Shown here: piece by piece, positions 14,200-19,212 of the stretch
Numbering within the stretch: the stretch's first letter is position 1
Layout: the number at the start of each line of letters is the position of its first letter
Origin: Mesoflavibacter profundi
GTDB lineage: Bacteria; Bacteroidota; Bacteroidia; Flavobacteriales; Flavobacteriaceae
Direction: 5' to 3'
Length of the DNA stretch: 64,000 nt
Assembly (NCBI RefSeq): GCF_014764305.1
Contig: NZ_CP061703.1
Coordinates: forward strand, 1,828,800 to 1,892,799
Notes under the pieces: generated by a model
Database searches by the model: none
What the model saw: only the letters and a program-made list of their open reading frames with translations
Told to the model about the DNA's origin: nothing
Made by a program: the position numbers and the translations under genes

Positions 14200-14286
14200 A
14201 TAGTAAACTTTAAATAGGTTTTAGGTAACTTTAAGTTAATGTAAGTGTTTCAATTTTGGAATTTAATAATTAATCCAACCAAACTA

Positions 14287-15843
14287 ATGAAACACACTAA
14301 ACACAATCTATTATTTTCTTCAACATTACTCTTAACACTTGCTTTAAATTTATGCTTATTTAATTGTGCAGACGATGATACTTCGGTAGAGGTTGATCAG
14401 CCAGAAGTAAACACAACAGTTAATTTTCAATATAAAACTACAATTCAAGTAGGCGGAGAAGCATCTGCCGAAATTTCAGCTTTTGATCCAATTACAAAAA
14501 AACTATTTGTAACAAATGCTCAAGCAAACGAAATTTCAATATTTGATATTTCAGAAATAAATAATCCTATACAACAATCGTCTATAGCGTTATCTGCACA
14601 AGGTGCTCCAAATAGTGTGTCTGTTTTAAACGGAAAATTAGCAATTGCTTTAGAAGCACCAGTAAAACAAAATCCTGGTTTTGTATTACTTTATGACACG
14701 CAAACAATGTATTTATTACAAACATTTACAGTTGGTGCATTACCAGATATGGTTACGTTTTCTAAAGATGGAAATTTTATTTTAACAGCAAATGAAGGCG
14801 AACCTAATGCAGATTATACGGTAGATCCAAATGGAACAATAAGTATTATAGATGTTAATAGTAATACGGTAACAACATTAGATTTTTCAAATTTTAATTC
14901 TGAAGAATTAGCGCTAGAATCTAATCATTTTAGAGTTTTTGGACCAAATGCTAGCTTAGCGCAAGATGTAGAGCCGGAATATATTGCAGTGTCAGAAGAT
15001 TCTCAAACCGCTTGGGTTTCTTTACAAGAAAACAACGGAATTGCTAAGATTAATCTACTGTCTAAAACCATAGAAGCCATTTATCCTTTAGGTTATAAAG
15101 ATCACTTATTAGCTCAAAATAGCCTTGATGCTAGTAATGAAGATAATGAAACTGTACTTAAAAATTGGCCAATTAGAGGATTGTATCAGCCAGATGCAAT
15201 AGTATCTGTTAATATTAATGGTGTTGATTATGTAATTTCTGCTAACGAAGGTGATGCAAGAGAATACGAAGGTACGCCAGGTTATATAGGAATAGATAGA
15301 GTTAAAGACATAAATTTAGATCCTTCGGCGTTTCCGTTATCAGAAGATTATCAAAACGAAGCTAATTTAGGTAGATTAAACGTGATGTTATCTGAAGGTG
15401 ATATAGATAACGACGGTGATTATGATTACTTATACTCTTATGGAGCAAGATCTTTTACAATTTGGAGTGCAAACGGAACTTTAGTTTACGATAGTGGTAA
15501 TAGTATTGCTGCAGAAACACTAGCTACTTCACCATCTACTTTTAATGATGAAGACAAACGAAGTGATGACAAAGGTGCAGAGCCAGAAAGTGTAGAAGTG
15601 TTAAACATAGCTAATCAACGTTATATTTTATTTGTAGGATTAGAACGTACAGACCAAATCATGGTATACGATATTACTAATCCAAATTCGCCAACATTTT
15701 TAACTATTTTATCTCATGAAGGTGACGAAGCTCCTGAAGGATTAATGATTATTCCTGCAGAAGATAGTCCAACAGGTAAAGATATATTAGTAGTCTCTAA
15801 CGAAGATAGTGGAACTGTTAGTTTTTATGAAAATCTACAATAA
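14287..15843 (+). CDS. Choice-of-anchor I domain lipoprotein
   Basis: A 518-residue surface or periplasmic lipoprotein with lipobox LFNC followed by ADDD. The rest is a seven-bladed-propeller-like choice-of-anchor I domain: an LVIVD-type start (KKLFVTNAQANEISIFDIS), then FSKDGNFILTANEGEP, VDYVISANEGDAREY, GDIDNDGDYDYLYSYG and KGAEPESVEVL. The many Asp-rich loops suggest calcium binding. Some relatives carry alkaline phosphatase-like partners, none of which is here. I start at ATG 14287 (MKHTKHNLL) because an ATG-less 14-residue extension upstream would spoil the signal peptide. A strong terminator follows. Confidence 0.85.
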   Translation: MKHTKHNLLFSSTLLLTLALNLCLFNCADDDTSVEVDQPEVNTTVNFQYKTTIQVGGEASAEISAFDPITKKLFVTNAQANEISIFDISEINNPIQQSSIALSAQGAPNSVSVLNGKLAIALEAPVKQNPGFVLLYDTQTMYLLQTFTVGALPDMVTFSKDGNFILTANEGEPNADYTVDPNGTISIIDVNSNTVTTLDFSNFNSEELALESNHFRVFGPNASLAQDVEPEYIAVSEDSQTAWVSLQENNGIAKINLLSKTIEAIYPLGYKDHLLAQNSLDASNEDNETVLKNWPIRGLYQPDAIVSVNINGVDYVISANEGDAREYEGTPGYIGIDRVKDINLDPSAFPLSEDYQNEANLGRLNVMLSEGDIDNDGDYDYLYSYGARSFTIWSANGTLVYDSGNSIAAETLATSPSTFNDEDKRSDDKGAEPESVEVLNIANQRYILFVGLERTDQIMVYDITNPNSPTFLTILSHEGDEAPEGLMIIPAEDSPTGKDILVVSNEDSGTVSFYENLQ

Positions 15844-15888: not shown

Positions 15889-16575
15889 TTAAATTTTAAA
15901 CGTAAATCCTTCTTCTACTTTTTTCTTATACTTGGTTTCATCAAACATATATAAAAAAGAACCTTTTCTAGAAGAATTCATATCTTTTTCTTCCAACTTA
16001 ACTAAGATATCAAGACCATTAATTTTGCTTGTAAAATTTCTTTTATCAAGTTTAGTATTTAAAATAGACTCATAAAGTTTTTGTAGTTGTTTCATGGTAA
16101 ATTTCTCCGGAAGCAACTCAAAGCCTATTGGTTTATGTGTTGCTCTATAACGTAGTCTGTTTAACGCATGTTTAACCATAATGTCATGGTCAAAAATTAA
16201 TTTTGGTATATCGTCTATAGCAAACCATTGCGCCGCATATTGTTCTTCAAGAGCGCTATGTGTTTCAATATTAATTAAAGCATAATAACTAACAGAAATT
16301 GTTCTATCTACAGGATCACGATCTACTTCACTATAGGCATTAAACTGTTCCATGTAAATATTATCATAACCAGTTAAGTGTTTTAAAACTCTATTACCAG
16401 CTTGGTCTAATGTTTCATTTTTTTTCAAAAAACCACCAATTAAAGACCATTTTCCTTTTTCGGGTTCAAAATCTCTTTTAATAAGTAATATTTTTAGTTG
16501 GTCTTTTTCAAAGCCAAAGATTATGCAGTCTACTGCAAGTAATACTTTGTCTTCATTAGAATAGTTATTTAACAT
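15889..16575 (-). CDS. Nudix-HTH transcription regulator (NrtR/AraR-type)
   Basis: A 228-residue regulator with a Nudix fold (about 10-150) and a C-terminal winged-helix domain (about 155-225, FTMKQLQKLYESIL and KRNFTSKI). The Nudix box is degenerate: after GGFLKKNETLDQAGNRVL the catalytic REXXEE residues are absent, so it should bind a ligand rather than hydrolyse one. In Bacteroidetes this family includes sugar-responsive regulators of utilisation loci. It is divergent from the SusC fragment and close to two copies of one palindrome (16757-16779 and 18650-18672), the probable operator. Start ATG 16575 gives the family-typical N-terminus. Confidence 0.85.
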   Translation of the reverse strand: MLNNYSNEDKVLLAVDCIIFGFEKDQLKILLIKRDFEPEKGKWSLIGGFLKKNETLDQAGNRVLKHLTGYDNIYMEQFNAYSEVDRDPVDRTISVSYYALINIETHSALEEQYAAQWFAIDDIPKLIFDHDIMVKHALNRLRYRATHKPIGFELLPEKFTMKQLQKLYESILNTKLDKRNFTSKINGLDILVKLEEKDMNSSRKGSFLYMFDETKYKKKVEEGFTFKI

Positions 16576-16756
16576 AAATTGGTTTTTGTTCAAAATTTGA
16601 AGTTTAGTTGTTACAAAACAACACAAACTTAATGGTTTTACAAACTTAAATGTAAAAAATACAATTATCAATAATAGAATTTTTCAGCTATTTAATGTTA
16701 AATTAATAAAAATAAGTGTTAAAATTTGGTTAATTAAAAAAAATATGCTTCTTTTG

Positions 16757-16779
16757 ATAAGTGTAAAATAAACACTTAT
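16757..16779. promoter_or_regulatory. Operator palindrome before the SusC fragment
   Basis: ATAAGTGT, seven bases (AAAATAA), ACACTTAT: perfect 8-bp arms. It lies 28 bases before the ATG of the SusC fragment and between a possible -33 TTTG (16753-16756) and a weak -7-like TAATTTTT (16779-16786), where a repressor would block the promoter. The same palindrome stands before the GH97 gene. Binding by the adjacent Nudix-HTH regulator is inference. Confidence 0.72.
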
Positions 16780-16807
16780 AATTTTTTTCAACTAAAAACT
16801 AACAAAT

Positions 16808-17188
16808 ATGATAACAACTAAAAGTGGTTATGGTAGTCAATTAAAAGGTAAGCTAAAACAGGGATTACTTTTATTGGTTGCTGTTATTTTTTCTTCTAGC
16901 ATTTATGCTCAAGAAAAAACAGTTACAGGAAAAGTAACGTCTTCTACCGATGGTATTGGATTACCTAGTGTAAATGTGGTTATAAAAGGAACAGATAAAG
17001 GTGTTTCTTCAGATTTTGATGGTAACTTTTCTATTCAAGCATCATCTTCAGATGTTTTAGTATTTAAATTTCTTGGATTTAAAGAACAAGAAATTGCAGT
17101 AGGTAATCAAACATATATCGAAGCTCAACTAGTAGAAGATGTTTCTAATCAGGAAGAAGTAGTTGTAGTAGGATATGGGACAATCTAG
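16808..17188 (+). pseudogene. 5' fragment of a SusC/RagA TonB-dependent receptor gene
   Basis: Only the first 126 codons of a gene that is normally near 1000 codons remain. They encode a signal peptide (about 1-35, ending SSSIYAQE), a carboxypeptidase-regulatory-like beta domain (about 39-113, VTGKVTSSTDGIGLPSVNVVIKG), and the start of the receptor proper, EEVVVVGYGT, where the conserved plug should begin. The frame then stops (TAG 17186) because the DNA switches at about 17183/17184 to the antisense of a GH97 gene. The whole plug and barrel are missing, so no transporter can be made. SusD is also gone. Confidence 0.9.
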
Positions 17189-18647
17189 TAAATGGTAATG
17201 TAGCACAATGACTAGGCTGTAAATCTGCTATATCTTGAAAGAATGTGATAAATTCTTGACCTTTTATAGCTTCTACAGTCATTAAATGCGGATAAGTACG
17301 ATGCCAACCTCGAGGTAAAGTAGCACCATGAAAATTAACTAGTAATTTATAATCTGCAGCATCTTTTAAAATATCGTGATAGTAGGCTATCATAGATTGA
17401 CCATCGCCTCCAAAAAAGTCAATTTTCACACCAGAAATTCCTAATTTGTTCATGCGTTTAAACTCTCTAACTCGATCTTCGTGAGTCAATAATTTACTTT
17501 TTGGGTGATAAGGTGTTGTGTTCCAATCTCCAGAAGAATTGTACCAAACAATAAGCTTTACGTCTTTAGTTCTTGCATAATCTGCAAGTGCTTTCATCTT
17601 TTCATCGCCAATGGTTGTGTCCCAATTAACGTCTATTAAGCAATAGCTCCATTGCATGGTAGAGGCATAATCAATAAACTGTTTTGTGGTGTCGTAATTA
17701 ACAGAATCGTCTTTAAGTAAAGCCCAACTCCAAGATGCTAATCCACTTTTTATAAAAGACGTATCCATGTTAATAGCTTTATCTGCTAAATCTGTTCCTA
17801 AAGTGCTTTCGGTGATAGTTTTTAGATCGCCAATAGCAATGACACGCCAAGGTGTTAACCAAGGTGTTTTTGATTCTGGAAGTAGTGCGCCATCTGTAAA
17901 AACTTCCTCTTTTTGAGGAAATGTTATCTTCAACGCTTCATCTGTATTGTTGTATTGTAATCTACTTCCACAGTAATTAGAATTTAAACCAGTTTCGGTA
18001 ATCGCAATCCAAGTTTGGTTAGTATTAAATAGCGCAGGAAAAACCCAACCTTCTTTTATAGATGAAGGTTTATTAACTGGAATTTCCATATCGTAATGTT
18101 CTTCATAAGACGGATTAGTATGTTCCCAACCTGTTTTTGCTTTAGACATAGGTTGTAAAAAACTTTTGGTGTTTTTATTTAAGTTGAAGGTGGTTTTTTC
18201 GTCTTTAATTTGATAACTATTGTCTGAAGTTTTAGGAAATTCATATCTAAAAGCAACACCATCTTCAGATACATTAAAAACGATATTTAGTTGTTTATCA
18301 TCTTCATTTTTTAACGATACGGTATATTGTTTTGCTTCGTAGGTGATTTCTTTTTGCTTACCATGAAATAAAGTGTATTGATCTTTGATAGTTTTTGCTT
18401 CAGAAACATTTAAAACAGATAAGTTACTGTAAAAATTACTGTCGCTTCGGTCTATGCCTAAATAAGATGTATCTAAAACAATAGAGTTTTTATGGCTAAT
18501 TGTATAAAAAGGACGTTGGTTTTTGTCTAAATTAAAGGTTAAGGCAATCGTTTTTTCTTTGTTTTCAAAAACATGATTTTGTTTAGTTTGCTTGCATCCA
18601 AATATTGTAAATGCTAGTAGTGTAGTAGTTAGTAGTAAGTTTTTCAT
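17145..18647 (-). pseudogene. GH97 glycoside hydrolase gene, 3' end deleted
   Basis: The product would be a lipoprotein (lipobox TIFGC, C18) with the N-terminal beta-sandwich and most of the (beta/alpha)8 barrel of family GH97, known for alpha-glucosidases such as SusB and alpha-galactosidases. Recognisable segments include WSWALLKDDS, YCLIDVNWDTT, GISGVKIDFFGGDGQ, LLVNFHGATLPRGW and LMTVEAIKGQEF. At the conserved TLPFTR the sequence breaks and continues for a few residues as the antisense of a SusC gene. About 150 C-terminal residues found in the family are missing. It may still be transcribed from its operator-bearing promoter, but is unlikely to be active. Confidence 0.88.
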
Positions 18648-18649
18648 TT

Positions 18650-18672
18650 ATAAGTGTTTGTTTTACACTTTT
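18650..18672. promoter_or_regulatory. Operator palindrome before the GH97 gene
   Basis: ATAAGTGT, seven bases (TTGTTTT), ACACTTTT: arms pair over 7 of 8 positions. Read on the other strand it differs from the copy before the SusC fragment at only two of 23 positions. It starts two bases from the ATG of the GH97 gene, so a bound regulator would block initiation or early elongation. Confidence 0.7.
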
Positions 18673-18720
18673 AAAATAAATAAAAAAAGGATACAGAATA
18701 AATTTTTAAAAGAATTTATT

Positions 18721-19212
18721 TTATAGATCTAAAATAGTACTCATGTAATTGTACAATTGTGTCATTTCTTTCTGGTTAGAAGTTTTGCTTAATCGACCAG
18801 CAAAATATAATACAAACCAACAGATTAGCATAGCTATCATGCCCCAAACTTGAAGGTGAATATCTGTTTTTAAAGCATAATTGGAATAAGCCCAAATAGC
18901 AAAAGCGATAAAAAATCCAGCTACAACAAAGTGCAAAAACATAAACATTGTCCATACGGTAGGACTAGGACCAAATAAACCGTAAACATAACACTTATGG
19001 TGTTCTGTATTATTAATTTCTAGATGAAGTTGAGGCGTAAAAAAACGTTGTTTAGATTTAGGAAATTTAATAAACACGTGATCATCTACTCTATTAACAA
19101 TAAAATCACTGCTAGTATCTGTTTCAAAAGCGTTTAAAATAGGTTCTTTTTTAGAGTTAAGCTCTATCTTAAACCTAGGTCTTAGTACAACATCATTTAA
19201 ATTTTCGTTCAT
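18721..19212 (-). CDS. Two-helix membrane protein, unknown function
   Basis: The 163-residue protein has a soluble N-terminal part (about 1-78) that is beta-rich (FIVNRVDDHVFIKFP), then two membrane helices (about 88-110 and 122-142) and a short C-terminal helix. I recall relatives next to der in other Flavobacteriaceae, but no function is known. It is divergent from der, with about 100 bases between the starts. Confidence 0.65.
   Translation of the reverse strand: MNENLNDVVLRPRFKIELNSKKEPILNAFETDTSSDFIVNRVDDHVFIKFPKSKQRFFTPQLHLEINNTEHHKCYVYGLFGPSPTVWTMFMFLHFVVAGFFIAFAIWAYSNYALKTDIHLQVWGMIAMLICWFVLYFAGRLSKTSNQKEMTQLYNYMSTILDL

Follow-up and report, generated by a model that had tools for sequence, protein, structure and literature searches.

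The Bacteroides AraR regulon (BtAraR/BT0354) is a described arabinose system, and in the published account (PMC4666351) the BtAraR site is given as 21-bp and semipalindromic with GTGT contacts, the targets include SusCD, GH43, GH51 and GH97, and the DNA contacts K184, K204 and R205 are named as absolutely conserved in Bacteroidetes AraR. The window analyzed here (64,000 nucleotides of Mesoflavibacter profundi contig NZ_CP061703.1) holds the start of a susC gene running head-on into the start of a GH97 gene. The initial annotation read this as a collapsed polysaccharide utilization locus (PUL) with both genes cut at one point, a reading which the analysis supported and extended. By gene content and comparison with relatives, the locus is predicted to be the remnant of an AraR-controlled arabinan/L-arabinose PUL, its intact neighbor on the minus strand is the putative AraR regulator of that same locus, and the loss would include the arabinose catabolic operon besides susC/susD, about 22-24 kb by comparison. 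Coordinates are collected in Table 1.

Table 1. Features of the collapsed locus, in window positions.
Feature	Position	Strand	Basis
araR, predicted Nudix-fold L-arabinose regulator (NrtR family), intact	15889..16575	-	Pfam NrtR_WHD and AraR_C; 5bs6; alignment of six relatives
Perfect predicted operator AAGTGT-N7-ACACTT, upstream of susC stump	16759..16777	.	
susC stump, codons 1 to ~125	16808..17183	+	ORF, TIGR04056, relatives' alignment; 17183 assignable to either side
Deletion junction	17183..17184 (17182/17183 or 17183/17184)	.	Comparison with relatives
GH97 stump, codons 1-488, cut after LPFTR	17184..18647	-	ORF, Pfam, relatives; GH97 C-domain absent from genome
Perfect predicted operator AAGTGT-N7-ACACTT, upstream of GH97 stump	18652..18670	.	

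The plus-strand ORF 16808-17188 (126 aa) is a SusC start that matches the SusC/RagA model TIGR04056 at model positions 1-88 of 981; it carries a carboxypeptidase-regulatory-like domain, then VVVGYGT at its end, plus one chimeric codon. The minus-strand ORF 17145-18647 (500 aa) is a GH97 start, in which Pfam matched GH97_N at 6-227 of 229 and Glyco_hydro_97 at just 1-205 of 275, and gave no match to GH97_C. With the barrel reaching only 205 of 275 and the C-domain missing, this is not a complete enzyme of N-domain, barrel and C-domain. The two ORFs overlap, the GH97 ORF extending by chance 12 codons into antisense susC. In relatives, SusC continues with K or Q next after GYG[TAS] (6/6 read) and GH97 with N next after LPFTR (4/4 read). 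By this comparison, the last susC-like base is 17182 (17183, should the lost codon have had A in first place), and the GH97-like sequence runs from 17184 on. The passage from susC into antisense GH97 had been placed at 17183/17184, which proved right to within one base on the relatives' continuation, the ORFs and the Pfam and TIGR04056 matches; the breaks reported for SusC at codon ~125 and for GH97 at TLPFTR likewise stand. A complete adjacent susC-susD pair is lacking, as antisense GH97 directly follows the cut susC, and the only carbohydrate-active enzyme alongside is the truncated GH97. Both stumps should be dead: the most they could yield is a short SusC N-domain that is exported, and a GH97 without barrel end and C-domain.

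No shared base at the cut was evident from the relatives, and 0 and 1 base of microhomology are indistinguishable with the ancestral bases missing. None of the repeats detected in the window touches the cut. Recombination at a repeat is not evident as the cause from the relatives' bases. Among 19 window proteins scanned (5 of them without any Pfam family) there were 0 matches to transposase or recombinase families, and no tRNA or Rfam match was found in the window.

For the relatives, the GH97 stump was searched against genome contigs, giving 24 loci, and the SusC stump was then searched in the genomes of 11 of the 24. The best SusC match lay within 25 kb of GH97 on the same contig in 8 of the 11 genomes. 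In seven of these (G061-G065, G069, G070) it was on the opposite strand and pointed to GH97, and in one (G067) it shared the strand of GH97; in the remaining three of the 11 (G060, G066, G068) it lay on another contig than GH97. Seven loci were mapped, namely six of the seven convergent ones and that of the Winogradskyella MAG (G060). Five of these are intact (Mangrovimonas ST2L15, M. xylaniphaga, Mangrovimonas TPBH4, Tamlana I1 and Bacteroidia MAG 6_bin.45), with the gene order AraR (-), susC (+), susD, arabinan-type hydrolases, araB-araD-araA, epimerase and symporter (+), then GH97 (-). As susC and GH97 already face each other in these relatives (5/7 mapped), one plain deletion yields the junction without an inversion. 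The initial annotation had allowed one deletion or an inversion with deletion; the single deletion fits, and inversion plus deletion was dismissed as needless given this convergence. In three genomes the distance between the cut points is 21,790, 21,920 and 23,878 bases, and by match ends the spacing is about 21,950 (Tamlana) and about 23,310 (ST2L15).

Ten genes of the ST2L15 run were named by Pfam (SusD, two with an alpha-L-arabinofuranosidase C-terminal domain, four GH43, GH127, an MFS transporter and the FGGY kinase araB). ORFs after araB match araA, the aldose epimerase and the SSF symporter of the Winogradskyella locus, and one gene of araD size was labelled by size alone. The two remaining mapped loci are arranged otherwise. 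Flavobacterium akiainvivens (G070) has AraR-susC and an opposed GH97, yet araB/araD-sized ORFs beyond GH97. The Winogradskyella MAG has AraR, arabinofuranosidase, GH127, araB-araD-araA, epimerase, symporter and GH97, and no susC or susD match was found in the 40 kb that hold its locus; its GH97 is the closest to the stump (69%). A second transaldolase-family copy stands tail to tail with the AraR gene of this MAG (L206/L207; G060:C11:20001-60000). Both edges of the window locus are orthologous to the intact-locus edges and in the same relative orientation (five relatives), and the regulator and its predicted operators are present at both edges.

The genome of the strain is one contig of 3,088,198 bases, 99.97% complete. 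It contains one GH97 catalytic match, the stump itself, and no GH97 C-domain, arabinose isomerase (AraA) or orphan SusC remainder was found in it; absence of the middle from the genome thus applies to these three parts only. For the last part, the remainder of ST2L15 SusC served as query; its 12 matches fall in six ORFs, all of which have an N-terminal match of their own to the SusC stump, and identity is 32% in the best match and up to 43% in short pieces. Of the parts that had been described as missing, the SusC remainder and the GH97 end are indeed absent from the genome, and susD is presumed lost by comparison with intact relatives.

The best solved match of the regulator was AraR 5bs6 (E 8.5e-65). 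It combines a Nudix-like domain with an AraR/NrtR winged helix, and the arabinose-bonding residues R34, R86 and H131 of BtAraR are kept. The araR ORF listed to 16671 starts with TTG and relatives start at an internal ATG, and the longer ORF is probably over-long. V92 and the DNA contacts K184, K204 and R205 of BtAraR differ here, the contacts reading S, R and K. T at the V92 position is common to all six aligned relatives and the other changes to most; because most of the six read the same, the altered contacts are a feature of the clade and not decay. AraR differs at 3/118 sites invariant among the other six sequences, against 0 to 12 for the six relatives. AraR and its predicted operators are proposed to remain as leftovers of the collapsed locus.

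The perfect palindrome occurs twice in the window against 0.01 expected, and 0/100 shuffles reached 2. With 2 mismatches allowed the window count was at chance (7 vs 6), so only near-perfect sites are meaningful. A predicted operator stands upstream of susC in the same place in 6/6 mapped relatives and directly upstream of GH97 in 6/7, the exception being F. akiainvivens, with 0-1 mismatch in both cases; the five intact loci have a further operator-like site just before araB (up to 1 mismatch). Together the two stump operators make up an inverted repeat of 29 nt with 90% complementarity (16753-16781 / 18648-18676), which brackets both stumps. A weak second operator-like site (16648-16666, 2 mismatches) lies near the araR start and is possibly autoregulatory; similar sites lie near araR in three Mangrovimonas loci.

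The whole genome holds three perfect sites and 13 at up to 1 mismatch, versus 6 for the reversed pattern. The third perfect site (G000:C1:3027039-3027057; L218:7040-7058) lies 88 bases upstream of a gene that scores over the cut-off of TIGR00875, the fructose-6-phosphate aldolase/transaldolase family. Allowing up to 2 mismatches within 400 bases, a site upstream of the transaldolase-family gene was found in 4/15 AraR-bearing genomes vs 0/14 without AraR (one-sided Fisher 0.057), where G007 (42% AraR-like match) was put among genomes without AraR and the AraR-bearing G061, without a match to the gene, was left out; on these counts the case for a conserved regulon member is weak. The genus-mate G001, without AraR, is also without an operator upstream of this gene. 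It is unlikely that a live, shrunken regulon persists, in which AraR would be kept since it still acts, with the stump operators as an AraR sink and the third site at the transaldolase-family gene. Were it so, an arabinose repressor would now be in charge of a central pentose metabolism step; the prediction is that AraR today acts, if at all, on the transaldolase-family gene.

The age of the cut was bounded from the reading frames. Random single-base changes in the stumps give a stop in 5.0-5.7% of cases, and with neither stump yet interrupted, the upper limit on neutral change after the deletion is about 2.9-3.1% (95%), a bound which assumes stumps free of selection and counts substitutions only. 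At fourfold sites, 43% differ from the genus-mate G001 (406/940; 11 neighboring genes). Because both frames are open at a bound of about 3% against this 43%, a recent deletion is supported as the probable reading, in line with the recent loss claimed before. The GH97 stump differs at 1/104 positions invariant in 23 relatives; other GH97 copies differ at 0-2, with the outlier L073 at 7/110 (L075, a partial match, was left out of this count and of the tree). An old pseudogene was ruled out by the stop-codon bound together with the invariant-site difference. In the tree the tip branch of the stump (0.317) is longer than that of its sister L052 (0.220), which was read as rate variation or slight relaxation.

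The collapsed locus sits between a choice-anchor-I gene (14245-15843) and a 163-aa gene (18721-19212) that adjoins der. None of the era-der intervals examined in 15 relatives holds the locus. In six genomes (G125, G106, G071, G003, G012, G002) the choice-anchor-I gene sits between era and der, an interval without any match to the stumps, AraR or the ST2L15 PUL proteins. Nine further der regions, that of G001 among them, also have era close to der; searched with AraR, the stumps and the choice-anchor gene, they gave no match between the two. In all six of G060-G065, der lies on another contig than the arabinose locus. Because the relatives' intervals hold no match to it and der is apart from the arabinose locus in those six, it is probable that the locus came into this site within this lineage and collapsed afterwards. 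The alternative to a lineage-specific entry is that G001 lost everything, its choice-anchor gene included. In G001, AraR gave no match at 1e-40 and the choice-anchor gene none at 1e-100, and the only GH97 there is a distant one (28%). The choice-anchor-I gene itself is kept in several relatives and was not found in G001, whose era gene is next to that for the 163-aa protein. A search of sister strains for an intact locus between these genes had been suggested as a check; five relatives have an intact locus, on a contig other than that of der, and the genus-mate has none.

The explanation is very probably that an arabinan PUL was truly lost, recently and in a single deletion. An ancestor would have carried the complete AraR-regulated arabinan/L-arabinose PUL between the choice-anchor-I and 163-aa genes, and a single illegitimate (non-homologous) deletion, some 22-24 kb long, would have joined susC codon ~125 to codon 488 of the convergent GH97 and taken out the remainder of SusC together with SusD, the arabinan-type hydrolases and the genes of arabinose catabolism. 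The anatomy, the absence of the searched parts, the relatives' intact arrangement, the predicted operators and the open frames were observed; block size and content in this lineage and the mechanism are presumed, as are a loss of growth on arabinan and the enzyme's substrate. Against the single deletion count the lack of an intact sister-strain locus at this site among the genomes seen (with G001 lacking such a locus), the differing arrangement in 2/7 mapped relatives (F. akiainvivens and the Winogradskyella MAG) and the longer tip branch of the GH97 stump.

The same junction would appear if the strain had an intact PUL whose middle was removed by a chimeric read or the assembler, and no repeat at the junction supplies a biological cause; such an artefact is very unlikely, since the assembly is a single, nearly complete contig with no leftover piece bearing AraA or GH97_C, and there is no shared sequence at the cut able to mislead an assembler. 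Just as improbable is the import of a neighbor's already shortened AraR locus between the choice-anchor-I and 163-aa genes. The era-der intervals without a match in 15 relatives fit such an import, as does the placement of the PUL, or of its susCD-less form, on a contig other than that of der in G060-G065, but two events would be needed in a short time, the stumps are without decay, and the same junction was seen in 0/24 GH97 loci (from a search that may omit records very close to the window). Least probable of all is that the missing parts were moved by inversion or transposition and not lost: a head-on junction can come from inversion, but susC and GH97 are convergent in intact relatives, and AraA, GH97_C and an orphan SusC part are all absent from the genome.

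The loss of sugar-use loci in Bacteroidota is mostly seen only as absence, and here the junction, edges, regulator and predicted operators survive, so that one sequence may tell how large and how old such a one-step loss of a nutritional niche is and how it likely came about. The locus is also a natural example in which a regulator has outlived most of its targets. Among the papers listed by a literature search, no title dealt with such a junction, which is not proof of absence. Most likely this is gene loss of an ordinary kind, caught unusually early and with unusually clear traces.

The closest solved relative of the GH97 stump is structure 5xfm (E 1e-104 over residues 26-488), which is full length (642 aa), unlike the cut stump. 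Compared with the Bacteroides AraR regulon, the AraR here is 46% identical (100/219 aligned residues) to BtAraR and shares its arabinose-bonding residues, whereas the three DNA contacts are changed and the targets present there are deleted here. The intact loci of Mangrovimonas, Tamlana and Bacteroidia MAG 6_bin.45 have, as here, AraR on the opposite strand, the susC start, a convergent GH97 and predicted operators at both ends; unlike here, they keep 22-24 kb between and lie on another contig than der.
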